The position numbers and the translations under genes are program-made. A stretch of 64,000 nucleotides of DNA from Thermoanaerobaculum sp. (GTDB taxonomy: Bacteria > Acidobacteriota > Thermoanaerobaculia > Multivoradales > UBA5704). The stretch covers positions 1 to 64,000 of the forward strand of contig JAJKHS010000133.1 in assembly GCA_021154885.1 (NCBI GenBank), given 5' to 3'. Shown here piece by piece: positions 22,834-42,080 of this stretch (its first letter is position 1; every line of letters starts with the position of its first letter). Under the pieces are notes generated by a model, which was not told the DNA's origin, made no database searches, and saw only the letters and a program-made list of their open reading frames with translations.

Positions 22834-23142
22834 ATGTTCGATCCGGACAGCCGCTACGCCGACGTCGAGGAGGCCGTGATGGTGACGGCCGACGGCCGGG
22901 AGGTGAGCTACAAGCGCCGTCGCTTCCTCCCCCAGGGGGCCTCGCAGCCGCTCCTGGCGGAGGTCAAGGTGCGGGAGGGGGACCGGCTCGACCTGCTCAC
23001 CTACCGCACCCTGGGCGATGCCACCCAGTGGTGGCGCGTGGCTGACGCCAACGACGCCATGCACCCGCAGGACCTCACGGCCGAGCCCGGCCGCACGCTG
23101 CGGGTGCCGGTGCCGCAGCTCCCCGGAGGCTTCGGCCGGTGA
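22834..23142 (+). CDS. LysM-domain baseplate protein
   Basis: 102 residues. The C-terminal part (about 40-98) is a LysM/gpX-like fold with VREGDRLDLLTYRTLGDATQ, WWRVADAND and LRVPVPQ. The N terminus has a short arginine-rich strand (YKRRRFLPQ). In eCIS baseplates this module is usually fused to the preceding tube-domain protein, as in Afp7/Pvc7, and links hub to wedge. It lies 9 bp after the tube-domain gene and overlaps the hub gene by 4 bp. It is structural rather than a peptidoglycan binder. Confidence 0.88.
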   Translation: MFDPDSRYADVEEAVMVTADGREVSYKRRRFLPQGASQPLLAEVKVREGDRLDLLTYRTLGDATQWWRVADANDAMHPQDLTAEPGRTLRVPVPQLPGGFGR

Positions 23143-24281: not shown

Positions 24282-24775
24282 AACCGTACTTCGGCAAGTA
24301 TCGCGGCAAGGTGAGCAACAACGTCGACCCCCTCCAGCTCGGCCGCATGCAGGTGGAGGTGCCGGAGGTGCTGGGCGACGGGCGGCTGTCCTGGGCCATG
24401 CCGTGCGTCCCCTTCGCCGGCCCCGGCGTCGGCTTCTTCGCCCTGCCGCCGCTCGACGCCAACGTCTGGGTGGAGTTCGAGCGGGGCGACCCCGATTATC
24501 CCATCTGGACCGGCTGCTTCTGGGACCCCGGCCAGTTGCCGGTCAAGCCGGCGACGCCGTTCGTGGTGGGGCTCAAGACCAAGAGCATCACTCTCAGCCT
24601 GGTGGACCTGCCGGGCGCCGGCGGCTTCACCCTGGAGGTCAAGCCGCCGGCCGTGGCGACGCCGCTCAAGCTCGCCTTCACCTCGGCGGGCATCGAGATC
24701 AGCAACGGCAAGAACAGCATCAAGCTCTCCGCCATCAGCGTCAACGTCAACGACGGCGCCCTGGAGATCATCTGA
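24278..24775 (+). CDS. gp5/VgrG OB-fold spike protein
   Basis: 165 residues. An OB-fold (about 1-90), with FGKYRGKVSNNVDPLQLGRM, VPEVLGDGRLSWAMPC, and VWVEFERGDPDYPIWTGCFW, is the gp5 N-terminal domain of spike proteins. The remaining 75 residues (LEVKPPAV..., IEISNGKNSIKLS, VNVNDGALEI) form a short beta-helix-like stalk. With the hub protein and the PAAR-like tip it builds the piercing spike. It overlaps the hub gene by 4 bp and the tip gene by 1 bp (TGATG). There is no lysozyme domain. Confidence 0.9.
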   Translation: MKPYFGKYRGKVSNNVDPLQLGRMQVEVPEVLGDGRLSWAMPCVPFAGPGVGFFALPPLDANVWVEFERGDPDYPIWTGCFWDPGQLPVKPATPFVVGLKTKSITLSLVDLPGAGGFTLEVKPPAVATPLKLAFTSAGIEISNGKNSIKLSAISVNVNDGALEII

Positions 24776-25098
24776 TGCCCGGCTACCTCCTGCACGTCGG
24801 CGCCCTCGTCCAGTGCGCGCACATGGGGATGGCCCAGCCGACGCTCAGAAACCCGCGGGTCAAGGTGATGGGACAGATGATCGTCACCCGGGTCAGCGTC
24901 TACACGATCTCCGGCTGCACGCTGCCGCCGCCGACCGCCGGCAACGGCCCGTGCGTCATGGCGCAGTGGCTCACCTCGGCGGTGCGGGTGCGGGCCAACG
25001 GCCTGCCGGTGCTGCTCTCCGACAGCCAGGCGCTGTGCAATCCCACCGGCACGCCGCTCTCCATCAAGGTGACCCAGCTCCGGGTCAAGGGGACCTGA
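24775..25098 (+). CDS. PAAR-like spike tip protein
   Basis: 107 residues. It opens MPGYLLHVGALVQCAHMG, giving a Cys-x-His pair, and has further cysteines in SGCTLPPP, GPCVMAQW and ALCNPTG. The His/Cys pattern fits a zinc-stabilised PAAR-like cone that sharpens the spike, as Pvc10/Afp10-type tips do. It sits directly between the OB-fold spike gene and gp25, with 1-bp overlaps (TGATG) on both sides. The exact metal ligands cannot be fixed by eye. Confidence 0.8.
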   Translation: MPGYLLHVGALVQCAHMGMAQPTLRNPRVKVMGQMIVTRVSVYTISGCTLPPPTAGNGPCVMAQWLTSAVRVRANGLPVLLSDSQALCNPTGTPLSIKVTQLRVKGT

Positions 25099-25460
25099 TG
25101 CAGATCGACTACCCGTTCCACGTCGACGACCGGCGGCGCACCGCGGAGACGGACGAGGAGGACCACGTGCGCGACCTGATCGAGCAGGTCCTCTTCACCA
25201 ATCCCGGCGAGCGGGTCAACCGCCCGGACTTCGGCGCCGGCCTCGATCAGCTCGTCTTCGGTCCCAACAGCCCGGAGATGGCGACCACGGTCCAGGCCCT
25301 CGCCCAGGGGGCGCTCCAGCAGTGGCTGGCGGACCGGGTGCGGGTGGACGCGGTGGAGGTCACCGCCGACGAGGGGGCGCTGCGCGTCACGGTGCGGTAC
25401 TCGCTGCTGCGCAACCTCGAGCGGCGGACGGCCGTCTTCTCGCGAGGGTCCGCCGGATGA
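25098..25460 (+). CDS. gp25-like baseplate wedge protein
   Basis: 120 residues of the gp25/GpW lysozyme-like family: MQIDYPFHVDDRRRTAETD, DHVRDLIEQVLFTNPGERVN, the EPR-type site replaced by NRPDFGAGL, then LVFGPNSPE and a VRVDAVEV strand. In contractile systems it joins the first sheath ring to the wedge (Pvc9/Afp9, TssE). It is not an active lysozyme. It overlaps the wedge gene downstream by 4 bp. Confidence 0.93.
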   Translation: MQIDYPFHVDDRRRTAETDEEDHVRDLIEQVLFTNPGERVNRPDFGAGLDQLVFGPNSPEMATTVQALAQGALQQWLADRVRVDAVEVTADEGALRVTVRYSLLRNLERRTAVFSRGSAG

Positions 25461-27943
25461 GCGACGCGGCCGACACCTTCCTGCGCCGGCGGCGGGCCGC
25501 GGTGGCGGCCCACGCGACCCAGATCGGGATCGACTTCGTCGAGGTCGTGACCGATCCGGTCGACGGCCAGCCGTACCGGCTCGTGCTGCACTGGATCCCC
25601 GCCGGCAGCCACCTGGCCAAGCACGGGGCGCTCGGCAGCCTGACGCGCGACAACCTCCGCTTCACGGCCGGCGGCGTGGCCGTGGACGGGCTCTTCACGC
25701 TCAAGAGCGACGCTGCCCACCTCCCCAATCCCCGGCATCCGTCGACCGACACCGACCTCGACCTGGTGACGATCGACGTCAGCTTCGCGAGCGACAGCGA
25801 CCTCGCCCACCGCCTCGGCCACGCGCCGGTCTTCACCCTGGAGCTGGTGGGGGTGGCGAACCTCGATCCGTTCTTCTCGCGGGTCGACTTCTCGCTCGAT
25901 CCCGCCTCTCCCCTGGACCTCGACTGCCAGCCGGCGTGCCCGCCGGCAGCCTCGGCGACGTCAGCGACGTCGGCATCAGGGCCGGCGCTGGCGAGCAACT
26001 ATCTGGCCAAGGACTACGCCAGCTTCCGCCAGCGCATGCTGGACGACCTCGCCCAGGCCCTGCCGGACTGGCAGGAGCGCAGCCCGGCCGACCTCCAGGT
26101 GGCGCTCGTCGAGCTGCTGGCCGACGCCGCCGACCAGGCGAGCTACTACCAGGACGCGGTGGCGACCGAGGCCTACCTGGGCACGGCGCGCCTGCGCATC
26201 TCGGCGCGCCGCCACGCCCGGCTGGTGGGCTATTCGATCGAAGATGGCAACAACGCCCGCACCTGGGCGCAGCTCAAGGCCAGCGCCACGGGCCCGGACG
26301 GCGTCTCCATTGCGCCGGGGACCCAGCTCCTCACCCGCGTGCCGGGAACCCCGGTCCTCCTCGCTCCCGGCTCCCCCGAGTACCTCCAGGCCCTGGCCGC
26401 GGGCCCCACGGTGTTCGAGACCCTGCAGCCGCTCCAGGTGTGGCGGGCCCACGACGCGATCCCCCTCTATGACTGGGGAGCGCCGGATTTCGCGCTGCCG
26501 GCGGGGGCCACCGGCGCCACGCTGAAGGGCGCCCTGCAGCACCTCGCGGCCGGCGACGTCCTGATCCTGGAGGAGCTGCGGGGGCTGGCGGCCGGGCAGG
26601 AGGCGCCCGATCCCGAGCACCGCCACGCCGTGCGTCTGACGCGGGTGCAGCCGGCCGCGGACCCCGTCGCCAGTCCCGACCCCGGCCCCCTGACCGCGGT
26701 CGAGTGGCAGGCGGACGACGCGCTGCCTTTCACCCTCCCCATTGCCACCCTGGCCGGCGGCACGCCGGTTTCCGGCCTGAGCATCGCCCGCGGCAACGTC
26801 GTCCTGGCCGACCACGGCCGCACGGTCGGCAGCGACGAGGCGCTGACGGCCACCGCCGGCCGCTTCCGTCCCCGGCTCGGGCGCACCGGGCTGACCCATC
26901 GCCAGCCCTACGACTACACCACCGCTGCCGCCCAGCCGGCGGCCGCGGCCCTCACCCAGTCCGCTGCCGCCGTCCTGCCGGTGATCGACCTGCACGACGA
27001 CGCGAACGCCTGGACACTGCGCGGCGACCTGCTGTCGAGCGACCGGTTCGCCCGTGACTACGTGGTCGAGATGGAGGACGACGGCTCTGCCGTGCTGCGC
27101 TTCGGCGACGGCGTTCTCGGCCTGCCGCCGGCGCCCGGCACCGTGCTGCACCCGGTCTATCGGGTGGGCAACGGCCGCGCCGGCAACCTCGGGCGCGACA
27201 GCCTCTACCACGTGGTGAGCGGCACGGCCGTGGCCGGGGTGCGCAATCCGCTGCCCGCCCTGGGGGGGGCCGACCCCGAGCCGCTCGACCGCATCCGGCT
27301 GGCGGCCCCGGGGACGCTACGGGCGCTCGCGGGGAGCACCAGCGAGCTGGACTTCGTCGAGCTGGCGATGACCCACCCGGAGGTCGAGCTGGCGACCGCC
27401 AGCCTGCGCTGGACCGGGAGCTGGTACGTCCTCGAGGTGGCGGTGCAGCGCCGGGGCGGGCTGCCGGTGGACGACGCATTCGCCGCTCGGCTGCGCGATT
27501 TTCTGGAGAGCTCCCGTCCCGCGGGCTGGGAGCTGGCCATCACCGGTCTCTCTTTCGTCGGGCTGGACATCGCCCTGACCGCCTTCCTCGACCCCCACGC
27601 CGCGGCGGGCGCCGTGGAGCAGGCGCTGCTGGCGGCGTTCAGCAACCGCGACCTGCCGGGCGGCGCCAAAGGGTTCTTCCATCCCGACAACTTCAGCTTC
27701 GGGCAGCCGGTCTACCTCAGCCGGATCGTCGCCGCCGCCCTGCAGGTGCCGGGCGTGGTGGCCGTCGACACCGACGACGCGCCGCCCAGCCCCAACCGCT
27801 TCCGGCGCTTCGGCGAGCCCTCCCGCGGTGAGTTGGACACCGGCCAGATCCGCCTGCGGGGGACCGAGATCGCCCGCGTCGACAACGACCCCGCGGCCCC
27901 CCAGAACGGCCGCATCCAATTCTTCCTGGAGGGTGGCCGATGA
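25457..27943 (+). CDS. baseplate wedge protein, J/gp6-like (Afp11/Pvc11)
   Basis: 828 residues. The N-terminal 160 residues contain beta-rich sequence (QPYRLVLHWIPAG, DLVTIDVSFASDSD). After an Ala/Ser linker comes the conserved wedge motif YLAKDYASFRQRMLDDL, with LPDWQERSPADL, SYYQDAVATEAYLGTARLR and RRHARLVGYSI. Further on, VEMEDDGSAVLRFGDGVLG and HPVYRVGNGRAGNLG mark the baseplate J core, and the C terminus has GGAKGFFHPDNFSFGQPVYLSR-type sequence, of which FHPDNFSFGQPVYLSR is the key part. It heterodimerises with the next protein to form the wedge triangle. It overlaps gp25 and the following gene by 4 bp. Confidence 0.92.
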   Translation: MSDAADTFLRRRRAAVAAHATQIGIDFVEVVTDPVDGQPYRLVLHWIPAGSHLAKHGALGSLTRDNLRFTAGGVAVDGLFTLKSDAAHLPNPRHPSTDTDLDLVTIDVSFASDSDLAHRLGHAPVFTLELVGVANLDPFFSRVDFSLDPASPLDLDCQPACPPAASATSATSASGPALASNYLAKDYASFRQRMLDDLAQALPDWQERSPADLQVALVELLADAADQASYYQDAVATEAYLGTARLRISARRHARLVGYSIEDGNNARTWAQLKASATGPDGVSIAPGTQLLTRVPGTPVLLAPGSPEYLQALAAGPTVFETLQPLQVWRAHDAIPLYDWGAPDFALPAGATGATLKGALQHLAAGDVLILEELRGLAAGQEAPDPEHRHAVRLTRVQPAADPVASPDPGPLTAVEWQADDALPFTLPIATLAGGTPVSGLSIARGNVVLADHGRTVGSDEALTATAGRFRPRLGRTGLTHRQPYDYTTAAAQPAAAALTQSAAAVLPVIDLHDDANAWTLRGDLLSSDRFARDYVVEMEDDGSAVLRFGDGVLGLPPAPGTVLHPVYRVGNGRAGNLGRDSLYHVVSGTAVAGVRNPLPALGGADPEPLDRIRLAAPGTLRALAGSTSELDFVELAMTHPEVELATASLRWTGSWYVLEVAVQRRGGLPVDDAFAARLRDFLESSRPAGWELAITGLSFVGLDIALTAFLDPHAAAGAVEQALLAAFSNRDLPGGAKGFFHPDNFSFGQPVYLSRIVAAALQVPGVVAVDTDDAPPSPNRFRRFGEPSRGELDTGQIRLRGTEIARVDNDPAAPQNGRIQFFLEGGR

Positions 27944-30528
27944 CCTCGCCGCGCGACGGGCTCGACGCCGGGCGCTGCCCGTCCCCGGAGAGCGCGGCGG
28001 CGCCGGCGGCCGTCTTCAATCCGCCGGGCCTCGCCGCCCTCGCCTACCGCATCGGCGTGCGGACGGATTTCCTGGCCCGCATGCTGGCCCTGCTCGCGAC
28101 CGCGACCCTGCCGGACGGCGACCACGCGGGGAGCCGGCCGCTCGCCAGCCTGGCGAGCCGGCACGGCGACGACCCGGCGGTGGCGCTGCTCGACGCCTGG
28201 GCCGACGTCGCCGACGTCCTCACCTTCTATCAGGAGCGGATCGCCGACGAGGGCTACCTGCGCACCGCCGCCGAGCGGCGGTCGGTCCTGGAGCTGGCCC
28301 GGCTGGTGGGGCAGGAGCTGGGGCCGGGGGTGGCCGCCAGCGCCTTCCTCGCCTTCACGGTCGACGACTCGCCGGGCTCCCCGGCCACGGTCCTCGTCCC
28401 GCAGGGGACGCAGGTGAAGAGCATCCCCGGCCAGGACGAGCTGCCGCAGACTTTCGAGACGGCGAGGGACTTCACCGCCCGGGCCGCGTGGAACGCCCTC
28501 GTGCCGCGCCGCGGCCGGCCGCAGGACCTCGCCGGCGCGCAGCAGGTGTTCCTCGCCGGCACCGACCTGCGGCTCGCGGCGGGAGACCTGCTGCTCCTGG
28601 TGGCCGCAGCACCCGGCCAGCCGTCGCTCCGGACGGTGGTCGGCCGGGTGGCGGCGACGACGGTGGACGCGGACCGCCTGCTCACCCGGGTGGCGCTCGA
28701 AAAACCGCTCGACCTCAGCGCCACGGACCTGAGCGTCGCGGGCGTGGAGGTCGCGGTCTTCGCCCTGCGCCAGCGCGCCGCCTTCTTCGGCCACAACGCC
28801 CCGCGGTGGGGGAGCCTGCCGCGCGGCGACGTAATGAAGGCCGACCCCTACAGCGAGAGCAGCGACGCCAACAATTGGGACCGCGGGCGGACCGTCTGGA
28901 CGGACTCGAAGGGGGTGCCGTACGCGAGCACCGGGCCGTCGGCCGTGTACCTCGATCAGAAGCTCCAGGACCTGGTCGCCCCGGGCTGGGCGGTGTTCGT
29001 GGGCCAGGACCTCGCGGGCCAGCCCCTGCCGGAGCAGGTCTACCTCGTCACCGGGCATTCCGAGGTCAGCCTGGCGGACTACGCGATCGCCGGCGAATCG
29101 ACCGGGCTGGCGCTGGCCACCGTGGCCGGCGACAGCCTGCCAGCCCGTCTGCCGGCGCTCGACGTCCGCCGCACCACGGTCTATCTGGGCAGCGAGCCGC
29201 TGCCGCGCGCCGACCAGCCGATCGACGCCCGCTATCCGTCGCCGGAGGCGGACGGCAACCTCGCCTCGCTGACGCTCGAAAGCTCCGTCGAGGACCTTCA
29301 ATCCGGTGTGCCGCTGGTCGTCGCCGGCCGGCTGAGCGACGGCAGCCTGCAGTCGCTCGTGGTCCTGTTGCAGGAGATCGACCAGGCGAGCGAGCCGGGC
29401 CACACCCGCCTGATCTTCCAGCAGCCGCTGCCGGCCGGGCTCCTCGACCGCGCCGCGGTGGTGATCAACGCCAACGTGGTGGTCGCCACCCACGGCGAGT
29501 CGGTCGCCGAGGTGCTGGGCAGTGGCGATACCAGCCGCAGCAACCAGCGCTTCACCCTCAGCCGGCCGCCGCTCACCTTCCTCTCGGCGCCGGTGCCGGG
29601 GGGGCGCGGCAGCAGCCTGGTGGTGCGGGTCGACGGCGTCGCCTGGCGCGAGGTGGACAGCCTCTACGGTGAGGATGGCAAGAGCCAGAGCTACATGGTG
29701 GAGATCGACGACGACGGCCGCGCCACCGTGCGCTTCGGCGACGGCCGCAACGGCGCGCGGCTGCCCACCGGCAACGAGAACGTCACCGCCGCCTACCGCA
29801 GCGGCGTCGGCCTCGCCGGCCGGGTGGGGGCGAACACGCTGCAACTGCTGGTCACCCGGCCGCTGGGCATCCGCGAGGTCACCAACCCGCTGCCGGCGGC
29901 GGGGGCCGCCGCTCCGGACACGGTGGCGCAGGCGCGCTCCGGCGGCGCGGTGGCGGCGCGCACCCTGGGCCGCATCGTGTCGCTGTCGGACTTCGAGGAC
30001 TTCGCCCGCACCTTCGCCGGCATCGCCAAGGTGGCCGCGGCGCCCATCGCCGGCGTGCACCTGACGGTGGCCGGGGTGGACGGCGACCCCGTCGATCCCG
30101 GCTCCGCGCTCTACACCAACCTGTTGCAGGCCCTCGAGGCGGCGCGCCTGCCGGGCCCGCCGGTGTCGCTGTCGTCCTACGAGCCGCTGCCGTTCCGGGT
30201 CGCCGCCCAGCTCGTGACCGATCCCCGCTACCGGCCCGAGGACGTGGCCGCGCGCGTCTCCGCCGCGCTGCTCGCGGCCTTCGCCTTCGACCGCCGCGAG
30301 CTGGCCGCGCCCGTCTACGCCTCCGACGTCGTGCGGCTGATCCAGTCCGTGGCCGGCGTGGCGGCGGTCGACCTCGACGCTCTCTACGTGGGGACGGGGA
30401 CGGCGGCGACGCTGGCGCCGGTGCTGACGGCGCAGCCGGCCCGCTTTGCCGGCGGCCGGGTGCTCCCCGCCCAGCTCCTCTACCTGCCGGCCGGCAGCAA
30501 CCTCAGCCTGAGGACGAGGACGCCATGA
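27940..30528 (+). CDS. baseplate wedge protein, gp6-like (Afp12/Pvc12)
   Basis: 862 residues. It opens with NPPGLAALAYRIGVRTDFL, then DAWADVADVLTFYQERIADE, GYLRTAAERRSVLELARLVG and LRPGV-like GPGVAASAFLAF, the usual start of putative baseplate assembly proteins in eCIS. The middle carries the variable domain; near residue 585 MVEIDDDGRATVRFGDGRNG and YRSGVGLAGRVG mark the J-like core. The C terminus has FAFDRRELAAPVYASDVVRL. It pairs with the preceding protein as the wedge core, which recruits fibres. It overlaps both neighbours by 4 bp. Confidence 0.92.
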   Translation: MTSPRDGLDAGRCPSPESAAAPAAVFNPPGLAALAYRIGVRTDFLARMLALLATATLPDGDHAGSRPLASLASRHGDDPAVALLDAWADVADVLTFYQERIADEGYLRTAAERRSVLELARLVGQELGPGVAASAFLAFTVDDSPGSPATVLVPQGTQVKSIPGQDELPQTFETARDFTARAAWNALVPRRGRPQDLAGAQQVFLAGTDLRLAAGDLLLLVAAAPGQPSLRTVVGRVAATTVDADRLLTRVALEKPLDLSATDLSVAGVEVAVFALRQRAAFFGHNAPRWGSLPRGDVMKADPYSESSDANNWDRGRTVWTDSKGVPYASTGPSAVYLDQKLQDLVAPGWAVFVGQDLAGQPLPEQVYLVTGHSEVSLADYAIAGESTGLALATVAGDSLPARLPALDVRRTTVYLGSEPLPRADQPIDARYPSPEADGNLASLTLESSVEDLQSGVPLVVAGRLSDGSLQSLVVLLQEIDQASEPGHTRLIFQQPLPAGLLDRAAVVINANVVVATHGESVAEVLGSGDTSRSNQRFTLSRPPLTFLSAPVPGGRGSSLVVRVDGVAWREVDSLYGEDGKSQSYMVEIDDDGRATVRFGDGRNGARLPTGNENVTAAYRSGVGLAGRVGANTLQLLVTRPLGIREVTNPLPAAGAAAPDTVAQARSGGAVAARTLGRIVSLSDFEDFARTFAGIAKVAAAPIAGVHLTVAGVDGDPVDPGSALYTNLLQALEAARLPGPPVSLSSYEPLPFRVAAQLVTDPRYRPEDVAARVSAALLAAFAFDRRELAAPVYASDVVRLIQSVAGVAAVDLDALYVGTGTAATLAPVLTAQPARFAGGRVLPAQLLYLPAGSNLSLRTRTP

Positions 30529-33500
30529 CCTGGTCGCGGGGAGAGCGCCTGTACCACCGGCTGCCGGAGGTCTACCGCCGGCGCGACCGCGAGCAGGGGG
30601 AGCCGTTGCGAGCCTTGCTGGCGGTGGTGGAGAGCCAGCTCGAAGCGCTCGAGGACGACGTCGCCGGCCTCTACGAGAACTGGTTCGTCGAGACCTGCCA
30701 GGACTGGGTGACGCCCTACCTCGCCGACCTGCTGGGGATCCAGGTGCTGGGCGACCCCGCCTATGCCGGCGCCCAGCCCCGGGCGCAGGTGGCCCGCGCC
30801 CTCGACTACCGCCGGCACAAGGGCACCCCGGCGGTACTGGAGCGCGTCGCGCGCGACGTCGTGGGTTGGCCGGCGCGGGCGGTGGAGATGTTCGCGCTCC
30901 TGGCCCACACCCAGAACGCCGGCCACGTGCGGCCGGGGCTGGGAGGCGTGCTCGACGTGCGGCGGCCGGAGGACGTGGCGGCGGCCGGCGACCCCTTCGC
31001 GCCGCCCACCCTGTTCCACTCCGTCGACCTGCGCCGGATCGCCTCGGGGCGCGGGCGCTTCAACGTCCCGGACCTCGCCCTCCACCTCTGGCGGCTCAGG
31101 TCGTACTTCATCGCCAGCAGCCCCGCCGCGCCGGCCCCGGAGACGCCGGTGGGCTTCCGCTTCGACCCGCTGGGGCGCGACCTGCGGCTGTTCAACCGGC
31201 TGGCTCCGGCCGCGGGCTCGACCCGCCAGGCGGCGGAGACCGACCTGCCGGTGCCGCTGCGGACCGCGGCGCTGGACCGCGACCTGCAAGCCTACAGGCA
31301 ACGCTTCGCCGCCGTACCCCCAAGCCTCCGCGCGCCGGCGAGCGGTTTCTACGGTCCCGGCCGTGCCCTCCTGGTGAGCAACGGCTTGGTGACCAGCGGC
31401 CAGAGCGCCCCGGTGTTCACGCCGTTCGACGTGGTGGCCCGCAACCTCGACGCCTGGGGCGCGGTGGGGCGGCTCTCCGGGCCGTTCGCCGCGTTCCCGA
31501 GCCTGACGGCCGCCCAGCCGGAGCTGAAGGTGACGCTGGGCGACGAAGGCCCCCACGTCGCGCGGCTGCGCACCCGGCCGGCCGACCTCGCCGGGGCGGC
31601 CGGCCTGCTCGAATTGGCTCTGCGCGGCGCCGATCCCAGCCCGCGTTTCGCCAACGCCCGCGTCTTCGTCGCCGGCAGCCGGCTGTACGTGGTGTCGGGC
31701 GAGCCGGGCGACCGGGTGGCCTTCGACGTCACCGAGAACGACGCCACCACCCTCGCCGAGCTGCATCTCACCAGCGCCGCGTCGGCGCCGGCCCCGGCCG
31801 CTGTCTCCGGCGTGCTCACCCCCTTCCCCGCGATCCCGGAGGCGGCCCCGCCCCTGCAGACCGGCAAGGTGGCCCTGGTGGTGGTCCACGGGCCGACCCG
31901 CACGGTGGTCAGGCTGCCGGCGGCACCGCGCGATCTGAAGCAGGCGCAGCAGGAGCTCTCAGCCGCGTTGCAGAGCACCACCGTCCACGTCTTCACCGCC
32001 GGCGGGCACCTGTTGCTGGTGGACGAGAACCCCGCCATGGCGGTGAGCGTGCAGCCGTCCACCGACGCAGGGGCCGTCGACCCGCTGACGGCGCCGCTCC
32101 TGGACCTGTCCTTCTCCGTGGCGATCGATCCCAAGCGGGGACGCCTCCTGCTCGCGCCCGGCGTGGTCCCGGCCGCCGCGGGGGTGCGGGTGGGCTACGC
32201 CTACGGCTTCGCCGCCGACCTGGGCGGCGGCCCCTACGACCGCCGCGCCACCCTGACCGATCCCGCCACGGCCGGGGCCACGCTCATCACCGTGACGAAG
32301 GCCGGCCCGGCCCCGGCCCTGCCGACCCTGGGGGCGGCGATCAACCAGTGGGCGGCGGGCGGGCGGCTGAGCACCGTCATCCGGATCGCCGACGACGAGC
32401 TCTATGCCGAAAGCCTCCCCGCCATCGCCGTGCCCGCCGGCCGGCGGCTGGCCATCGAGGCGGCCGACGGCATGCGCCCGGTGATCCGCCCGCTCAGCAC
32501 CTTCACGGTCGCCGGTCCCGGGGCCGTCACCCTCAACGGCCTGCTGCTCGACGGCGGTCTCGAGCTGGGCGCCGGGCTCGACCTCCTGCTCACCCACAGC
32601 ACGCTGGTGCCCCGGCCCGGGCAGGCGAGCCTGACCTTCAGGGCCGGGGACGACCCGGCCGAGCTGCGAGTGCGGGTGACCTTCTCCATCGTCGGCGCGC
32701 TGGGGCTGCCGGCGGACCTCGCTTCCCTGGAGCTCGCGGACAGCATCCTCGACGCCAGCGTGGCCGGCACCGGCGGCGAGCCGCTGCCGGCCCTCGTCTC
32801 GCTACCGCTCCCCGGGACCCTGGCGCTGAGCGCGCATCTGGAGGTGGGGGTCAAGCTGGGGAGCCAGGGACCGGTCTCCGCCCGGCTGCGCCAGGCCCCC
32901 GCCAAGCTCGCCGAGGCCCGGGACGCCCTCCAGGCCGCCATCCGCGCCGCGGGCACCGGCACCAGCTTCTCCGGCGCCCAGGTGGAGGTCGTGGGCAGCC
33001 GGCTGCTGGTGCGCTCCGGCGCCACGGCCGCCCCGCCCGAGCCGGTCGCCTTCTCCCCCACCACTGCCGACGCCACTACCGCCGGCGCGCTGCAACTGCT
33101 GGCGTCGCCGGCGGGGGCAGCGGAGAACCTCGCCGGCCGGCTGTCCGGCGACCTGTCGGTCTTCCCGGCCCTGGGCCGGCCGCAGGTGGGGGTCACCATC
33201 GGCGGCGACGGCCCCTGGATCGCCCTGCTCGACACCCTGCCGGTCGACCTCGATCAGGCCGCCAGGCTGTTGCAGGATGCCCTCCGCGCCGCCCGCGACC
33301 GGCCCGCCTTCGCCGCGGCCTCGGTTGAGTCCCTGGGCGACCATCTGCTGGTCCGGCCCGGGGTGGCGGCAGCCCTGGTGGACGTCGCCGCCACTCCGGC
33401 CGACACCTACACCGTGGCGGACCTCGGGTTCACGGGGCCGTTCACGCCCCCCGAGGGGACGTTTGTGCAGGGGGTCTTCTCCGCGCCGCTGTCGCCGTTC

Positions 33501-36500
33501 CCCTCCTTCCCGGGGCCGCAGTTGCAGGCCACCCTGGGCGGCATCACGCCCCCGCCCCTCAAGCTGACCGGCCCGGCGGCCACCCTCGCCGACGTCGCGG
33601 CCGCCCTGGGCACGGCCCTGCGCGCCGCCAACCCGGCCGCCATCTTCGCTTCCGCGAGCGTGCTGGCGCTCGGCGACCGCCTGCTGGCGCGCCCCGGCAC
33701 GCCGGGCGCGGCGGTGAGCTTCGCCGGCACCGGCCAGGACCCCAGGACCCTCGGCGACCTGGCCCTCGCGGCGCCGCCGGCCGAGGCCGTCGACGGTCTG
33801 CTCTCCAGCAGCCTAGCGAGCTTCCCCTCGTTCCTGCAGCCGCAGCTCCAGGTGACTCTGGGCGGCGAGGGGCCGCGTCTGGCGGTGCTCGCCGGCATCC
33901 CCATGAATGCGGGCAGCGCCCGCGAGCTGCTGCAGGCCGCGCTGCGCGCGGCGAGCACCACCGACGTGTTCAGGAAGGCCGAGGTCCTGCAATTGGGGAC
34001 CCGGCTGCTCGTGCGCTCCGGCGTCGCGGCCGTCGTCGTCGAGGCCGCGCCCGCCGACGCCAACACAGCCGGGGACCTGGGGCTGACCGTGCCGCAGGCC
34101 CGGCAGCTCCAGGGCCTGCTCTCGGGCCCGGTCTCGCCGTTCCCCACCTTCCCCGCCGCCCAGTTGAAGCTCGCCTTCGGCGGCACGGCGGCCCAGACGG
34201 CGACGCTCGCCGGGTTCCCCACCACCTCCACGGAAGCCCGGTCGCAGCTCGAGACGGCGATCCAGGCGGCCGGCACCACCCCCTCCTTCACCGGCGCCCG
34301 GGTGGGGCTGTTCCAGGACGCGGGCGGCCGCGACCGCCTGCTGGTGATCTCCGGCGTGGCCGGGGAGACGGTGCGGGCCGACGCCGCCGCCGACGATCCG
34401 CTGACGGTCGCCGACCTGGGGCTCGCGGCGCCCGGGCCCTTGACGCCCGGGGCCGTGCTGGTCAGCGGCCTGCTCTCGGGTGAGCTGTTCCCCTTCCCCA
34501 TCCTTTTCCAGCCGCAGGTCGCCGTGACCTTCGGCGCGCTCGGCCCCACGACGGCCGTGCTCGCCAGCGTGCCCGCCAGCCTGGCGGAAGCCGCCACCCT
34601 GCTCGCGGCGGCCCTGAAGGCGGCCAGCACCAATCCGCGCTTCGCCAAAGCCGGCGTGCTGGTGGGCGGCGACCGCCTGCTGGTCCTGCCGGGCCCCGGT
34701 GGCCAGCCGGCGACCTTCGCGGCGACGGCGGCCGATCCCAACACGGCGGAGAACCTGGCGCTGGTGCAGCCGCCGGCCCGCCCGGTCCAGGGGCTGCTGT
34801 CGGGCGACCTGGCGGCGTTCCCCATCTTCGCGCGGCCCCGGTTGCAGATCGCCATCGGCGCCTCGGGGCCCCTGCCCGCCGAGCTGGCCAGTTTTCCCGC
34901 CAGCCTGGCGGAGGCGGCGGCCGCGCTGCAGAGCGCGATCCGCGCCGCGAGCGCCAGCCCCGCCTTTACCGCGGCCACCGTCACCGCCTACAACGGCCGG
35001 CTGGTGATCCAGCCCGGCACCGCCGCGGGCGGCCCGGTGACCGTCACCGCCGCGCCGGCGCCCGACAATGCCACGGCCGGCGACCTGGCCCTCCTCCAGC
35101 CGCCGGCGGCGCCGGTGCTGGTCTCGGGGGACCTCGCGGCGTTCCCGGCCCTGCAGCTCCCCCAGGTCGCGGTCACCCTGGGGACCCGCGGGCCCGTCGC
35201 CGCCAGCCTCGCCGATCTGCCGGCCAGCCTCGACACCGCCCGCTCCCTGCTGGAGGCGGCCCTCCAGGCGGCCGATCCGAGCGCCACCTTCACCGGCGCA
35301 CGGGTCGTGAAGACGCTCGACGACCGCCTCCTCGTGCTCCCCGGCGTGGCCACGGACGGGGTCGCCATCGCCAATTCCGGGACCGATGTGACAGCCACCG
35401 AGCTCAAGCTCGCCACGGGTTCCGGCAAGGCGATCAACGGCCTCTTCTCCGGCTCGCTGGCGACCTTCCCTACCCTGACCTCGCCGGTCAAGGTCGACGC
35501 CAACTTCGGCGCCACGACGCGGACCGCCACCCTCAGCGGGGTGCCCACCGACCTCGCCACCGCCCGCAGTCTGCTGGAGACGGCGCTACGGGCCATCACC
35601 CCGGCCGCCGCCACCTTCACCGGCGCCCGGGTCCTGGTGGTGGGCAGCCAGCTCCTCGTCCTCCCCGGGGTGGAGACGGACGCGGTGAGCTTCGCTCTGT
35701 CCACCGGCTCCACGGCCGCCACCGACCTCAAGCTGACCGCCGCCGGCGCCACGGCCACCCAGGCCCTCCTCTCGGGAACGCTCAATCCGTTCCCGGCCCT
35801 CACCGTGGCTCCCGCGGCGACGGTGACGCTCGCCGGCAACGGCCGGCTTGCCATTCTCTCCTCGGTGCCGAAGACCCTGGCGGCGGCGGCGGCGGCCTTC
35901 CAGGCCGCGATCCAGGCGGCCGATCCCTCGACCCTCTTCACCGGCGCCACCGTGGAGGTGCTGGGCACCCGCCTGCTGGTCCGGCCGGGGGGCGCGGGCG
36001 GGAGCGTCCTGATCGCCGACGCCGGGAGCGGGCGCCCCGCCACGGCCACGGCGCTCCTGCTCAAGGCGGGCAGCGCCTCGACGGCGCTGCTCTCGGGCGA
36101 CCTCTCGACCTTCGGCGGGCTGTCGATCACGCCCCAGGTCCAGGTCACGATCGGCGCCACGGGTCCGTCCACCCTCCGCCTCGCCCGGGTGCCGGCCGAC
36201 CTCGGCGATGCCAGCGCCCTCCTCCAGTCGGCGTTGCAGAGCGGCACCGGCCCGGCTTTCACCGGCGCCACCGTCGAGCTCTTCGGCACCCGGCTGCTGG
36301 TGATTCCGGGCGCTCCGGGCGGCGGCGTCACCTTCGCCGACGCGCCGGTGGGCCCGCCGGTCGCGACCCGGCTGGCGCTGACCGCCGGCGTCGCCACGGC
36401 CGTCGACGGCCTGCTGTCGGGCAGCATCGCGTCGCCGTTGAAGATCACCCTGCCGCCGCTGGCCCTCGCGGCCACGATCGGCGCGACCACCCGCACCGTC

Positions 36501-39500
36501 GACCTGGGACAGGTCCCGGGCCAGCTCGGACAGGTGCCGGCGAACCTCGCGGACCTGGCGGGCAAGCTCCAGGTCCTGCTGCGGGCGGCCGGCGGCGGCC
36601 CCTCCTTCGCTCAGGCCCAGGTCCTGGTGATGGGCAACCAGGTCCTCGTCCTGCCGGGCACCGCCAACGATCAGGTGGCGTTCACGCCCGAGCCGGCCAG
36701 TCCGCAGGTCGTCACCATCCTCAAGCTGGACGCCGGCGCGGCGCGGACCACGCGGGGCCTGCTGACGACCGCTCTGAGCGCGCCGCTCGTCCTGCATATC
36801 GCGCCGTCGCTCAACGCCACGTTCGGCAGCGACTCGCACGGATTGCGCTTCACCGCGGCGCCGAAGAGCCTGCAGAAGGCGGCGGACCTGCTGCAGAGCG
36901 CGCTGCGGGCCGCGGCCACCACGACGACGTTCACCAACGCCGTGGTGCAGGTGCTGGGCAACCGGCTGGTGGTGACGCCCGGCACGGCCACGGATGCGGT
37001 CACCTTCGCCGAGGGCTCGTCAGGACCGCCGGCGATGAGCATGCTGGGTCTCAGCCCGGGCGTCGCGGTCGCCGCCACGGGCCTGCTCTCCGCTCCCTTC
37101 CCCGTGGTGCCGCTGGAGGCCGCGAGCCCCGAGGTGCAGGCGACCCTGGGCGGCACCACCGCGACCGCCCGCTTCACCGCCGTGCCGGCCGACCTGGCCA
37201 CCGCCCGCAGCGAGCTCGAGAAGGCCTTGCGCAACGCGAGCTCCGCCGCCACCTTCACCGGCGCGCGGGTCGACGTCGTCGACGGCAGCTCCCTGCTGGT
37301 ACGGCCCGGGGTGGCGACCGACGCCGTCGCCTTCGCCGCCACGGCCGCCGACCCCGACACGGCCGGCCAGCTCCGGCTCACGGCCGATCGCGCCCGTTCG
37401 GCCCGCGGCCTGCTGTCGGGATCGCTGACGCCGCCGGGATCGCTGACGCCGCTGCCCACCCTCACGCCCGGGCCGCGGGTCGCCGTGACCCTGGGCGCGG
37501 AGGGTCCCTTCACCGCCACCCTGGCGGGGGTTCCCGCCAGCCTCGGCGAAGCCCGCGACTTCCTGGAGACCGCCATCCAGAGCGCCCAGACCACGCCGGC
37601 CTTCACCGGCGCGCGGGTCCTGCTGGTGGGGGACCGGTTGCTGGTGCTGCCGGGAACGGCCGGCGCCGCCGTCACGGTCGCCAACGTGAGCGGCGGCCCG
37701 CTCACGGCGACGGAGCTGAAGCTGACCACGGTCCTGGGCGCGGCGACCACGGAAGGGCTGCTGTCCGGAGACGGGGTCGTGACGCCGGCCCTCCGCCTCG
37801 ACGCCACCCTGGCGGGCCTGCCCGGCCGCCTCACCCTTGGCGCCATCCCCACCGACCTCGGCCAGGCGCGGGACCTGCTGGAACGCGCCTTGCGGGCTGC
37901 CGCTCCCGACCGGGCCTTCCGCGACGCCACGGTCCGTGTGCTCGGCGACCGTCTCCTGGTACGGCCGGGCGGCCCCGGCCCCGCCCGGCTCTCGTTCTCC
38001 AACGCCCCCTTCGGTCCCGCCGCGGCGACCCTCCTGGGGCTCGCACCCGGCGAGCGCGGGGACGGGCTGCTGTCGGGACCGCTGCCCGGCTTCGCCGGGC
38101 TGACGATCGCCCGGCCGGCGGTCGAGGTGACCTTCGGCGACCAGGGACCGTACCCTGCGCGGCTGGACCGGGCGCCCGCCGACCTGGCCGACCTGAGCGG
38201 GCTGCTGCAGAGCGCCCTGCAGGCCGCGGCCGCGGCCGCCGCCGCCACCTTCACCGGCGCGCGGGTGCAGACGGTGGGCCAGCGGCTGCTGATCACTCCG
38301 GGCCGGCCCACCGACCGCGTGGTGTTCACGCCGGCATCGGACCGGCCCGAGGACCTCAGGCAACTGGGCCTCGACCGCCTGGAGCCGGCCGGCGGGCTGC
38401 TCTCGGCGGCGCTCCCACCCACCCTCAGCGTCCGTTCGCGTTCGCGGCTGGCGGTGCAGCTCGGCAGCGACGGGCCCCGCGTCATCGTGCTGTCGCACCC
38501 CCCCGCTGACCTCGCGGACGCCGCCAGCCTCCTCCAGCAGGCGTTGCGCGCGGCATCGGGCGGCGGCGCCGCCTTCCAGAACGCCACCGTCCGCGTCGTC
38601 GCCGCCAGCCGGCTGCTGGTCGGCGCGCCCGGCGTCACCGGCGACCAGATCGTCATCGGGCCTGTATCGGGCACCCCGGCCGATCCCAACACGGCGTTCC
38701 GGCTGCGGCTCGATACCGGCAGCTCGCTGCGCGCCGACGGCCTGCTCTCCGGCGACCTCGCGGTCCTGCCGCCCTTCGCGTTGCGGCCGATCGTCGACGT
38801 GACGATCGGCGACGAAGAGGCCTTCCCCGCCGAGCTGCCGTTCGTCCCCGCCACGCCGGCGGAGGCGCGCGAGGCGCTGGAGACGGCCCTCCACGCCGCC
38901 CGCAGCAGCCCGGCCTTCGCCCTCTCCCGGGTGGCGCTGTCCGACGACCAGCGGCTGATCGTCCTGCCCGGCAGCGCGGGACGGGTGACGATTGCGGCCG
39001 ATCCCGGCGATGCCAAAACGGCCGGGGAGCTGAAGCTGACGGACGCCGTGCGCCCGCAGGTGGGGGCCCTGCACGTGGGTGGCCTGCTCTCGGGTCCCCT
39101 GGCCCCCACCCTCTCCCTGCGCTCGCCGGCGCCCGAGCTGCGCGTCGTCTTCAGCGCGGGGAGCCCGGTGGTGGTCTCCCTCGGCGCCGCGCGGAAGCTC
39201 GCGGACGTCCGCGCGGCGCTCCAGGCCGCGCTGGCCGGGAGCGCCTTCGTGGTGGCGCGAGGGGACCGTCTGGCCATCGTGCCGGCGACCGACGGCGTCT
39301 CCGTGGGGGTCTCGGCCACCGCCAACGACGCCACCACGGCCGGCGACCTGGGGCTGGCGGTGGGGCGCGCCGTGGGCACCGGCACCACCGACGAGGAGGC
39401 CGGGCCTCCCCTGTCGCTCACCCGCACCACGGTCTTCGGCCGGGTGATCGTCCGCGAGCTGCCGTTCGCCTCGGAGGTGATCTTCGACGCGCCGGTGCAG

Positions 39501-39938
39501 GTGGAGCGGCGGCAGGCCGGCTGTGTCCGGTTCTGCTACCTGCCCGCGGGCTCCGAGGCGCCGCGCGGCTTCCGCTGCCAGCCGGACCTGGCCCTCGCCC
39601 AGGCGATGAGCCGGGCGGTCGAGGACCGCGCCCGCGAGCTCGGCCTGACCGCGGCGGACGAGCTGCCGGCCGCGGTGGCCGACGCCCTCGCGGCCAGCGC
39701 GCGGACGGCGGTGCTGACGCGCCTCCAGCCGCGCTTCACCTCCGAGCGCTACGGCGATCCCGGCTATGGCCAGCTCACCCTCGCCACCGCGCCGGAGATC
39801 CTGACGGGGGCCGAGAACGGCCTGGAAATGGGCGCCTTCCACCAGCTCCTGGAGCCCCTGCGCCGCCGCCAGCTCGCGACCCTGATCGCGGAGTACCTGC
39901 GCTTCGGGCTCGACGCCGGGACCTTCGACGTGACTTGA
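30525..39938 (+). CDS. 3137-residue eCIS baseplate protein (tail-protein-I-like) with about 22 internal tandem repeats
   Basis: Residues 1-120 are like phage tail protein I: ERLYHRLPEVYRRRD, CQDWVTPYLADLLGI, ALDYRRHKGTPAVLERVARD. A middle segment (about 522-763) includes GRLLLAPGVVP, YAYGFAADLGGGPYDRR, LTLNGLLLDGG-like NGLLLDGGLELG and LADSILDAS. The C terminus (about 2948-3137) has PLSLTRTTVFGRVIVREL, CVRFCYLPAGS, RCQPDLALAQ and LEMGAFHQLLEPLRRRQL. Those three parts alone would make the usual protein of about 700-900 residues. Inserted are two repeats at about 314-520 and some 20 more at about 764-2947, each about 100-115 residues and beginning GLLSGxLxxFP. It overlaps the wedge gene by 4 bp. 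It is a baseplate periphery component; the repeats may form arms or fibres. Confidence 0.88.
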   Translation: MTWSRGERLYHRLPEVYRRRDREQGEPLRALLAVVESQLEALEDDVAGLYENWFVETCQDWVTPYLADLLGIQVLGDPAYAGAQPRAQVARALDYRRHKGTPAVLERVARDVVGWPARAVEMFALLAHTQNAGHVRPGLGGVLDVRRPEDVAAAGDPFAPPTLFHSVDLRRIASGRGRFNVPDLALHLWRLRSYFIASSPAAPAPETPVGFRFDPLGRDLRLFNRLAPAAGSTRQAAETDLPVPLRTAALDRDLQAYRQRFAAVPPSLRAPASGFYGPGRALLVSNGLVTSGQSAPVFTPFDVVARNLDAWGAVGRLSGPFAAFPSLTAAQPELKVTLGDEGPHVARLRTRPADLAGAAGLLELALRGADPSPRFANARVFVAGSRLYVVSGEPGDRVAFDVTENDATTLAELHLTSAASAPAPAAVSGVLTPFPAIPEAAPPLQTGKVALVVVHGPTRTVVRLPAAPRDLKQAQQELSAALQSTTVHVFTAGGHLLLVDENPAMAVSVQPSTDAGAVDPLTAPLLDLSFSVAIDPKRGRLLLAPGVVPAAAGVRVGYAYGFAADLGGGPYDRRATLTDPATAGATLITVTKAGPAPALPTLGAAINQWAAGGRLSTVIRIADDELYAESLPAIAVPAGRRLAIEAADGMRPVIRPLSTFTVAGPGAVTLNGLLLDGGLELGAGLDLLLTHSTLVPRPGQASLTFRAGDDPAELRVRVTFSIVGALGLPADLASLELADSILDASVAGTGGEPLPALVSLPLPGTLALSAHLEVGVKLGSQGPVSARLRQAPAKLAEARDALQAAIRAAGTGTSFSGAQVEVVGSRLLVRSGATAAPPEPVAFSPTTADATTAGALQLLASPAGAAENLAGRLSGDLSVFPALGRPQVGVTIGGDGPWIALLDTLPVDLDQAARLLQDALRAARDRPAFAAASVESLGDHLLVRPGVAAALVDVAATPADTYTVADLGFTGPFTPPEGTFVQGVFSAPLSPFPSFPGPQLQATLGGITPPPLKLTGPAATLADVAAALGTALRAANPAAIFASASVLALGDRLLARPGTPGAAVSFAGTGQDPRTLGDLALAAPPAEAVDGLLSSSLASFPSFLQPQLQVTLGGEGPRLAVLAGIPMNAGSARELLQAALRAASTTDVFRKAEVLQLGTRLLVRSGVAAVVVEAAPADANTAGDLGLTVPQARQLQGLLSGPVSPFPTFPAAQLKLAFGGTAAQTATLAGFPTTSTEARSQLETAIQAAGTTPSFTGARVGLFQDAGGRDRLLVISGVAGETVRADAAADDPLTVADLGLAAPGPLTPGAVLVSGLLSGELFPFPILFQPQVAVTFGALGPTTAVLASVPASLAEAATLLAAALKAASTNPRFAKAGVLVGGDRLLVLPGPGGQPATFAATAADPNTAENLALVQPPARPVQGLLSGDLAAFPIFARPRLQIAIGASGPLPAELASFPASLAEAAAALQSAIRAASASPAFTAATVTAYNGRLVIQPGTAAGGPVTVTAAPAPDNATAGDLALLQPPAAPVLVSGDLAAFPALQLPQVAVTLGTRGPVAASLADLPASLDTARSLLEAALQAADPSATFTGARVVKTLDDRLLVLPGVATDGVAIANSGTDVTATELKLATGSGKAINGLFSGSLATFPTLTSPVKVDANFGATTRTATLSGVPTDLATARSLLETALRAITPAAATFTGARVLVVGSQLLVLPGVETDAVSFALSTGSTAATDLKLTAAGATATQALLSGTLNPFPALTVAPAATVTLAGNGRLAILSSVPKTLAAAAAAFQAAIQAADPSTLFTGATVEVLGTRLLVRPGGAGGSVLIADAGSGRPATATALLLKAGSASTALLSGDLSTFGGLSITPQVQVTIGATGPSTLRLARVPADLGDASALLQSALQSGTGPAFTGATVELFGTRLLVIPGAPGGGVTFADAPVGPPVATRLALTAGVATAVDGLLSGSIASPLKITLPPLALAATIGATTRTVDLGQVPGQLGQVPANLADLAGKLQVLLRAAGGGPSFAQAQVLVMGNQVLVLPGTANDQVAFTPEPASPQVVTILKLDAGAARTTRGLLTTALSAPLVLHIAPSLNATFGSDSHGLRFTAAPKSLQKAADLLQSALRAAATTTTFTNAVVQVLGNRLVVTPGTATDAVTFAEGSSGPPAMSMLGLSPGVAVAATGLLSAPFPVVPLEAASPEVQATLGGTTATARFTAVPADLATARSELEKALRNASSAATFTGARVDVVDGSSLLVRPGVATDAVAFAATAADPDTAGQLRLTADRARSARGLLSGSLTPPGSLTPLPTLTPGPRVAVTLGAEGPFTATLAGVPASLGEARDFLETAIQSAQTTPAFTGARVLLVGDRLLVLPGTAGAAVTVANVSGGPLTATELKLTTVLGAATTEGLLSGDGVVTPALRLDATLAGLPGRLTLGAIPTDLGQARDLLERALRAAAPDRAFRDATVRVLGDRLLVRPGGPGPARLSFSNAPFGPAAATLLGLAPGERGDGLLSGPLPGFAGLTIARPAVEVTFGDQGPYPARLDRAPADLADLSGLLQSALQAAAAAAAATFTGARVQTVGQRLLITPGRPTDRVVFTPASDRPEDLRQLGLDRLEPAGGLLSAALPPTLSVRSRSRLAVQLGSDGPRVIVLSHPPADLADAASLLQQALRAASGGGAAFQNATVRVVAASRLLVGAPGVTGDQIVIGPVSGTPADPNTAFRLRLDTGSSLRADGLLSGDLAVLPPFALRPIVDVTIGDEEAFPAELPFVPATPAEAREALETALHAARSSPAFALSRVALSDDQRLIVLPGSAGRVTIAADPGDAKTAGELKLTDAVRPQVGALHVGGLLSGPLAPTLSLRSPAPELRVVFSAGSPVVVSLGAARKLADVRAALQAALAGSAFVVARGDRLAIVPATDGVSVGVSATANDATTAGDLGLAVGRAVGTGTTDEEAGPPLSLTRTTVFGRVIVRELPFASEVIFDAPVQVERRQAGCVRFCYLPAGSEAPRGFRCQPDLALAQAMSRAVEDRARELGLTAADELPAAVADALAASARTAVLTRLQPRFTSERYGDPGYGQLTLATAPEILTGAENGLEMGAFHQLLEPLRRRQLATLIAEYLRFGLDAGTFDVT
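32815..39365 (+). repeat. protein-level tandem repeat array, about 20 units of roughly 330 bp
   Basis: Each unit encodes, in order: GLLSG-L--FP; an (Q/R)(V/L)xVTLGxxGPxxAxL strand; a VPASLAEARxLLxxALRAA helix; a FTGARVxVLGDRLLVxPG strand pair; and a VxFAxxxxDPxTAxxLxL segment. Units differ in most residues, so the array is old rather than a recent DNA amplification. Units 1 and 2 of the same family lie apart at about 31465-32085. Confidence 0.85.
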
Positions 39939-39959: not shown

Positions 39960-42080
39960 ATGAAAGGCGATTTCTCCCGTTTCACCTTCGACCGCACCAA
40001 GCGCTACGCGGGCGTGCGCATGCAGCAGGGCCGCGTCCAGCTCGACGCCGACTGGAACGAGCAGCTCGACATCGCGAGCTACCTGCGGCAGACGATCGCC
40101 GCCGACGTCATCGGCCCCTCCGGCGCGCCGCTGCGCAACGGCGGTTTCGAGGTGGGGTTGGGGAACGGCGAGCTGGTGCTCTCCCCGGGCCGCTACTACG
40201 TCGACGGCATCCTCTGCGAGAACGACGCGCAGACGTCGCTCAACCAGCAGCCCGACCTGCCCGGCCTCCCCGCGCCGTCCACCGGGGGCTGGTACCTGGT
40301 CTACCTCGACGTCTGGCAGCGCAGCGTCACGGCGCTGGAGGATGCGGACCTCCTGGAGCTGGCGCTCGGCGGACCGGACACCACCACCCGCATGCGCACG
40401 GTCTGGCAGGCGAAGCTCCTCCATCTGACGGCCGCCAACCCCGTCTGCGCCGACTTTCCCGCCGGCTGGCGTCCGCCCGAGCCCGCTCAGCCCGCGACGC
40501 CGAAGACGCCGCTGCTCGCCGCCCGCAGCGTCCGCGCGCCGCAGGAGAACCAGCTCTACCGCGTCGAGGTCCACGCCGGCGGCGGGCTCACCGGCGCCAA
40601 CGCGGCCACCTTCAAGTGGTCGCGCGACAACGCCGCCGTGGCCGCCCTCATCCGCAACCCCATCGAGACCAAGCAGGCCACCTTCTCCCAGATCGTCGTC
40701 ACCCGCCAGATCGGTCCGGACCAGGCCGGGGGGTTCGCCGTCGGCCAGTGGATCGAGGCCACGGACGAGAGCCGCATCCTCAAGGGCCAGCCCGGGATCT
40801 TCGCCCAGATCGCCGACGTCAAGGGTCAGGTGCTGCAGGTGGTCGGCTGGCCCCGTCCCGAGGACCCGGTGCCCGACCTGCCCACGCGCCCGATCATCCG
40901 CCGCTGGGACTCGGGCAACGCCGCCGCGATCACGGTTCCCGCGGCCAACGGCGGCTACCTCGCCCTCGAGGACGGCCTGGAGATCCGCTTCGGCGACGAC
41001 TCGAGCACCTGGTTTCACACCGGCGACCACTGGGTGATCCCCACCCGCGCCTCGGCAGGCGTGCTCTGGCCCCAGGACGCGGCCGGGCAGCCGGTCCAGC
41101 AGCCGCCTCTGGGCGTCGAGCACCACTTCGCGCCCCTGGGCCTGGTGGCCCTGGCCGGCAGCACCTGGGCCCTCGGCACCTCGTGCCGCAAAGTCTTCCA
41201 GCCCACCACGGTCATCCCCGGCAACGAGAAGCTCAATCGCGTCGGCCCCGACACCTTCACCGGCCAGCTCACCGTCGACGGCAACGTGATTGTCAAGGAC
41301 GCGCTGTCCGTCGGCGGCGCACCGGGAGCGAGCCTGACGATGGTCAACGCTCCCCTCGTGCCCTCCCTGGGCGACGACGCCGCGCACGGCATCCGCTTCC
41401 CCCCGGCCGGGGCCGGCACTGCCACCGGCTACCTGCGCTATCTCGACCTGTCGCCCAATCCAGCCAAGCTCGTCCTGGGGGCCGACGACCCCGCCGTCGT
41501 GGCGCTGCGCCAGGCGGGCGCCGACCGCCTGACGATCACCGGCGGCAAGGTGGGCGTCGGCCTCTCGAACCCCGCGGAAGCCCTGCACGTCCAGGGGAAT
41601 CTGCGCCTCGACGGCTCGCTCTCCGTGCGGGACGGCTCCCAGAAGGCGGGCCGGGTCCTCACCGCCGGCAACGACGGCCTCGCCACCTGGCAGGACCTGC
41701 CCACCCGCAGGCTGGGCTCGCCGGTCTTCCTGCCCCGCGCCGTCGCCATCGCCAACGGCGGCTCCGGCCAGACCGGCTGGAACACCTTCCCGCTGCCCAC
41801 CGACAAGATCCCCAGCGATGCCAGCGCCGTGCTGATCGAGGGGCAGGCCGCGATGGACCAGCCGGACGCGGGCGCCATCGACGCCATCATCGCTTTCCGC
41901 AAGGGTCCCGACGAGGAGGAATACACGCTGCTGCGCGGCCGCTCCGCGGCTGGCGGCGACTCCGTCGCCTGGGGGGGGCAGGGTCTGTTCCCCTTCCAGA
42001 ACAACTCCATCCAGTACATCGTCTCCGGCCCCGGCTTCAACTGGGGCTGGTGGATACGGCTCATCGGCTACTTCCCGTAG
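39960..42080 (+). CDS. DUF6519 protein with fibre-like C terminus
   Basis: 706 residues. The N terminus MKGDFSRFTFDRTKRYAGVR, then MQQGRVQLDADWNEQ, is the DUF6519 signature common at the end of eCIS operons, followed by SPGRYYVDGILCEN. A region at about 430-560 has phage-fibre character: TFTGQLTVDGNVIVKDALSVGG, in which TVDGNVIVKDALSVGG is the key part, and GKVGVGLSNPAEALHVQGNL, a variant of the VGIGT-x-P-x-x-LHV fibre motif. The last 120 residues (FPLPTDKIP, AIIAFRKGP, WGWWIRLIGYF) look like a folded tip. It probably makes the receptor-contacting fibre. GAGGAAG precedes the ATG; it lies 21 bp after the giant gene and is the last gene of the operon. Confidence 0.85.
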   Translation: MKGDFSRFTFDRTKRYAGVRMQQGRVQLDADWNEQLDIASYLRQTIAADVIGPSGAPLRNGGFEVGLGNGELVLSPGRYYVDGILCENDAQTSLNQQPDLPGLPAPSTGGWYLVYLDVWQRSVTALEDADLLELALGGPDTTTRMRTVWQAKLLHLTAANPVCADFPAGWRPPEPAQPATPKTPLLAARSVRAPQENQLYRVEVHAGGGLTGANAATFKWSRDNAAVAALIRNPIETKQATFSQIVVTRQIGPDQAGGFAVGQWIEATDESRILKGQPGIFAQIADVKGQVLQVVGWPRPEDPVPDLPTRPIIRRWDSGNAAAITVPAANGGYLALEDGLEIRFGDDSSTWFHTGDHWVIPTRASAGVLWPQDAAGQPVQQPPLGVEHHFAPLGLVALAGSTWALGTSCRKVFQPTTVIPGNEKLNRVGPDTFTGQLTVDGNVIVKDALSVGGAPGASLTMVNAPLVPSLGDDAAHGIRFPPAGAGTATGYLRYLDLSPNPAKLVLGADDPAVVALRQAGADRLTITGGKVGVGLSNPAEALHVQGNLRLDGSLSVRDGSQKAGRVLTAGNDGLATWQDLPTRRLGSPVFLPRAVAIANGGSGQTGWNTFPLPTDKIPSDASAVLIEGQAAMDQPDAGAIDAIIAFRKGPDEEEYTLLRGRSAAGGDSVAWGGQGLFPFQNNSIQYIVSGPGFNWGWWIRLIGYFP

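Follow-up and report, generated by a model that had tools for sequence, protein, structure and literature searches.

Why should one baseplate protein of an eCIS have reached 3137 residues, what has it been enlarged with, and what might the additional mass do on the particle? The window, as the whole stretch of 64,000 nucleotides that was analysed is called here, carries an ORF at 30525-39938 (+ strand, ATG start) coding for a product of 3137 aa and 316 kDa. The first-pass annotation had read this ORF as a gpI-like eCIS baseplate protein, of a kind that is normally well under 1000 residues. Both points hold: the protein matches Tail_P2_I (PF09684; 27.3 bits vs a cut-off of 20.6, aa 31-110) and is encoded within an eCIS operon (Table 1), and its ordinary homologues, which are present in the class of the source genome and in named genomes of many phyla, span 624-844 aa. 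The phage tail protein domain TIGR02242 was scored at 31.2 bits, below its cut-off of 51.85. Repeats have enlarged this gpI-like protein more than four-fold.

The operon

The genes for sheath, tube, cap, AAA+ ATPase, spike, gp25 and baseplate J proteins lie in one run, and no capsid, portal or terminase gene was found among the scanned subset of window ORFs. Judged by its gene content, the operon around the 3137-aa gene appears to be a complete-looking eCIS cluster.

Table 1. Features of the eCIS operon and parts of the 3137-residue protein, with positions in the window
Feature	Position	Strand	Evidence or remark
Tail sheath protein, 562 aa	14824..16512	+	PF04984, PF17482
Tail tube protein	16524..17036	+	PF06841
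T4 baseplate-type protein	17044..17790	+	PF12322
Cap protein (Pvc16_N)	18716..20017	+	PF14065
AAA+ ATPase, eCIS type	20014..21975	+	PF00004, PF22977
Spike (Phage_base_V / VgrG-like)	23018..24775	+	PF04717
gp25-like sheath initiator	24813..25460	+	PF04965
Baseplate J-like wedge protein 1	25322..27943	+	TIGR02243, 237 bits
Baseplate J-like wedge protein 2	27940..30528	+	TIGR02243, 228 bits
gpI-like (Tail_P2_I) eCIS baseplate wedge protein	30525..39938	+	3137 aa
N-terminal gpI / Tail_P2_I part, aa 1-315	30525..31469	+	PF09684; 69% identity with UBA5704
Site 1 insertion, repeats 1-2, aa 316-537	31470..32135	+	flanks DLDAWG / VAIDPKRGRL
Right-handed beta-helix (pectate-lyase-like, predicted), first part, aa 538-756	32136..32792	+	L088 model m5e2bb9f09328; blastp
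Site 2 insertion, 20 repeats (repeats 3-22), aa 757-2953	32793..39383	+	profile HMM
Last beta-helix coils (predicted) and C-terminal part, aa 2954-3137	39384..39935	+	normal homologues; L088 model
DUF6519 protein, conserved downstream neighbour	39960..42080	+	PF20129; syntenic in UBA5704

A search of a phage collection with the first 825 aa (tblastn) gave no match. Comparison with gp7/Tri2-type proteins, carried out with a structure model of a shorter homologue (L088, see below), gave a weak match to the diffocin triplex (8v3w_4; Z 8.1, 140 residues aligned, rmsd 11.9). Elsewhere in the window, a second giant repeat protein is encoded beside the eCIS, divergently from the adjoining sheath gene (7218-14765, - strand; 2515 aa, with 18 DUF11 stretches and a CARDB domain), and two overlapping ORFs on the - strand (56213-59839 and 59836-63558; 1208 and 1240 aa) are without Pfam match.

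The repeat array and its two insertion sites

A profile HMM resolves 22 diverged repeats of ≈ 108 aa each, two of them at aa 316-537 (site 1) and 20 at aa 757-2953 (site 2). The domain E-values of 21 of the 22 range from 7e-12 to 4e-39, the second repeat being the weakest (6.5e-6), and the repeats share 29-43% identity with repeat 1. The site 2 array alone comprises 2197 aa and 217 kDa, has not a single cysteine, and is bounded by SILDAS...PLPAL on one side and GTTDEEAGP-PLSLTRTTV on the other; the earlier reading of some 2180 residues of repeats between SILDAS and PLSLTRTTV, with two further repeats ahead of them, is thus borne out in both parts. Sequence searches of Pfam, PHROGs, NCBIfam and the PDB with the repeat returned stray matches and no convincing family.

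An assembly artefact, which the first-pass annotation had named as a way in which its reading could fail, and likewise a recent duplication, can be dismissed. DNA identity between the window copies does not exceed 64% (median 54%), a divergence at which Tandem Repeats Finder is blind to the array, and indeed it did not detect it; the repeats, moreover, follow the same order as those encoded by a syntenic gene of Holophagales bacterium UBA5704, which belongs to a different genus. GC3 is 0.95 throughout the array and matches the flanks. Identity at lag 1 equals that at lag 2 along the array, so that an odd/even alternation is not seen; the copy numbers found in gpI-like proteins (2, 18, 20) are all even, in cases that are not independent of one another.

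The insertion was assessed with 71 normal-length homologues (624-844 aa) having all three core parts. In these proteins the site 2 flanks, i.e., the SILDAS part and the SLTRTTVFG part, join directly or nearly so, as the first reading had stated: the offset is mostly ≤ 20 aa, in a few cases 22-52 aa, and at most 139 aa, the last in an archaeal protein with an unrelated insert. At site 1 the normal homologues, like UBA5704 (DLGGW to VAVDPERGRL), have a short linker only. Since the repeat is absent from all 71, it cannot be part of the core fold, the other circumstance that would have spoken against an insertion.

Smaller numbers of the same repeat do occur at these sites in related proteins. Exactly two are found at site 2 in gpI-like proteins of Chloroflexota (L099, L106, G534, G563, G564 and G607, the four G genomes belonging to the same class as L099), and two at each of sites 1 and 2 in a homologue from Anaerolineae (L088), while a gpI-like protein of Rhodothermales (L097) has at least one repeat before its contig ends. 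The 2521-aa frame of G607 is not a gene fusion, as gpI and DUF6519 are joined there via a masked stretch. An unrelated insert of ≈ 140 aa occupies the same beta-helix loop in a Thaumarchaeota archaeon (L122:9884-12508), and a gpI-like protein of Nostoc sp. WHI (L133:9899-14926; ≈ 1650 aa) carries other added domains, including FRSxNxGxxW (BNR-like) repeats. These sequences mark the gpI beta-helix loop at site 2 as an insertion hotspot.

Predicted beta-helix core and fold of the repeat

The architecture of the core could be approached through the L088 homologue (1155 aa), in whose model the beta-helix is mostly predicted with pLDDT > 90 (whole-model mean 74). A right-handed beta-helix of the pectate-lyase-like fold occupies residues 584-1125, with a PL6 alginate lyase as match (Z 21.8, 256 residues aligned), and this helix is interrupted at about residues 770-990 by the two repeats. 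According to the model, the array would thus exit and re-enter between neighbouring coils of a tailspike-like helix. As the two ends of the array come together at a single place on the helix, a loop or hairpin-like arm is to be expected and not a free tail; both the shape and the reach of the array are what we infer.

The first reading had proposed that two or three adjacent repeats be modelled. Repeats 8-10, predicted from a 12-row alignment (pLDDT 84.6), show the order beta-beta-alpha-alpha-beta-beta-beta-alpha in each unit. The best VIA-align matches are residues ≈ 87-211 of the sheath proteins of Pa193, XM1 and E217 (Z 13.0, 12.4 and 11.5, respectively); for the XM1-type sheath insertion domain the agreement reaches Z 12.4-13.0 with rmsd 2.0-2.3 over 104-113 residues. 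FliD and flagellin D2-D3 domains rank after the sheath domains, at Z 8-9. In this context it is of note that the authors of the XM1 structure likened its insertion domain (InD) to domain D3 of FliD (PMC10457771). The repeat is accordingly predicted to have a known type of fold, that of the sheath insertion and FliD/flagellin D2-D3 domains. Because a PDB sequence search (hmmsearch) gave no significant match to solved chains (best E 0.035, unrelated proteins), the relationship to these domains is one of predicted fold only. In the repeat, no binding site of a known type for sugars or receptors was recognised.

The same domain on sheath and cap proteins

The repeat profile also matches eCIS sheath proteins of relatives, G058 having three copies and G091 and G498 one each, with further matches in G507 and others; in these sheaths the repeat is an insert between the N-terminal and the subtilisin-like parts. 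Every strong profile match that was examined more closely belonged to an eCIS protein. Sheath proteins of 875 and 641 aa (L066:7844-10471 and L067:5345-7270) contain three repeats and one repeat, respectively, and a Pvc16-type cap protein in an eCIS operon (L207:10049-12202, G859) has two in its C-terminal part; the cap protein of G758 (L202) seems to have two as well. In the window itself, the repeat HMM was negative on both the sheath (562 aa) and the cap (Pvc16_N). Mutual exclusion between repeats on sheath and on gpI was not upheld, G498 having both, perhaps in different clusters. The occurrence of one and the same domain on sheath and cap elsewhere makes the repeat look like an exchangeable surface decoration. 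An adhesion aid has been proposed for the extra domains of phage tail sheaths (PMC9230969).

An orthologous array in another genus

In Holophagales bacterium UBA5704 (L075, contig DIHE01000109.1), the orthologous gene encodes 18 repeats at site 2 and lies in an operon that is syntenic with the window from cap to DUF6519. When all copies were placed in one tree, 13 window repeats and 13 UBA5704 repeats were each other's nearest neighbours, and all 13 pairs kept the same order, a result reached by 0 of 100,000 permutations; a larger repeat tree upholds 13 colinear pairs with UFBoot 94-100, its deep branches being poorly supported. The FastTree tree hinted that the array had grown from its last pair of repeats, which the larger tree did not uphold with confidence. 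The colinearity of the repeats shows the array to be older than the separation of the two genera, its units having been kept in place since then. Identity amounts to 46% for the array copies vs 50-64% for the core, the copies thus evolving slightly faster than the core.

Proposed role and alternative explanations

It can be rationalized that the N-terminal and probably also the C-terminal region of the protein would serve as the wedge part, with the right-handed beta-helix between them resembling a built-in tailspike, and that arrays of sheath-type surface domains would project outward from two loops, one between its coils and the other immediately ahead of the helix. In this gpI family, a decoration module that eCIS may place on sheath, cap or baseplate would have grown on the baseplate to 18-20 units, their order being kept thereafter. 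T4-like wedges contain one gp7-type copy each, six per particle. With the same stoichiometry, which we infer for this eCIS, 132 domains of together about 1.4 MDa would surround the baseplate. The likeliest role of long peripheral arms of this kind would be to hold on to a target surface through many weak contacts and to fix how far the beta-helix stands from that surface. Gp7-type wedge proteins are known to bind spikes or fibres and to be a hotspot of re-engineering (PMC10457771, PMC8894135). We favour, with moderate confidence, the reading that a surface-decoration module was amplified into long arms at the periphery of the baseplate, probably for adhesion or spacing. The wider proposal, that eCIS share a decoration module of sheath/flagellin-D2 fold which moves among their sheath, cap and baseplate wedge proteins, and that one Acidobacteriota family amplified it to a megadalton corona of ≈ 130 domains, we would give an even chance.

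Three other explanations have to be weighed against adhesive arms. The array might pack around the spike as a closed cage or skirt and serve as a gate, opened when the machine fires. It does exit from a baseplate protein, and the baseplate cage of AlgoCIS is known to open before sheath contraction, cage-like structures being present in MACs and T6SSiv as well (PMC8894135, PMC13314943). The AlgoCIS cage, however, consists of domain IV of the gp6-like Alg11 with its CBM-like modules (PMC8894135), whereas the repeats here reside in the gpI-like protein, the J-like proteins of the window are without array, and the fold differs; copy numbers of 2, 18 and 20 would also suit arms better than a closed cage of fixed size. 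A cage is therefore considered unlikely. We think it similarly improbable that the arms act as tethers, holding the machine at the envelope of the producer cell, or that they link particles into arrays as in MACs or T6SSiv. The superstructures of these two systems form at the gp7-like part (PMC8894135), and a large copy number with an order kept across genera would agree with a tether, but the array bears no sequence sign of a membrane or wall anchor.

The array could, finally, have arisen by near-neutral tandem expansion at a permissive loop, without specific function. The site 2 loop does accept an unrelated insert in the archaeal protein, and the slightly lower identity of the copies relative to the core would fit such an expansion. 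Yet the frame has stayed open over 2197 aa with the GC3 of the core, and the order of the repeats is the same in another genus; this conserved order renders neutral expansion less likely, and we regard it as quite improbable. Adhesive or spacing arms remain the preferred reading, in which sequence architecture, insertion points, synteny and colinearity are observed, the folds predicted, and surface position, arm shape and adhesive role proposed.

The gpI protein, the beta-helix and the sheath-insertion fold are all of known kinds. What was not found in the literature searched is such an array in an eCIS, an array of this size, and the occurrence of one module across sheath, cap and baseplate. 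An exchangeable surface domain would serve contractile injection systems on all three of these parts, and one baseplate protein was enlarged more than four-fold while the operon stayed intact. The natural series of copies at one site (0, 2, 18, 20) makes it possible to test how binding, spacing and firing depend on the size of the appendage. A corona of ≈ 130 domains, if true, would be a kind of appendage undescribed for any contractile injection system.

Comparison with known systems

The closest counterpart is the UBA5704 gene, with the same operon and the same order of repeats, which lacks the two site 1 repeats and partners for window repeats 16-17. The beta-helix gpI-like eCIS proteins of Chloroflexota, Cyanobacteria, Myxococcota, archaea and others (624-844 aa) share the N-terminal part, the beta-helix and the C-terminal part; unlike the window protein, they have no repeat, or exactly two per site in some Chloroflexota. 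The sheath InD of XM1, Pa193 and E217 and the D2-D3 domains of FliD and flagellin have the same predicted fold as the repeat, there as a single domain of a sheath or filament protein, in contrast to 22 copies in a baseplate protein, and without significant sequence match. The spike cage of AlgoCIS is likewise a large extra domain on an eCIS baseplate wedge protein, but on a gp6-like one, with a CBM-like fold and as one domain of ≈ 366 aa (PMC8894135). The multi-domain phage sheaths (type 3 of Evseev et al.), too, carry extra domains on a conserved core, at the outer face of a contractile tail; these domains are mostly Ig-like, few in number, and located in the sheath (PMC9230969), whereas the window protein places 22 copies of a sheath-insertion-type domain on the baseplate.
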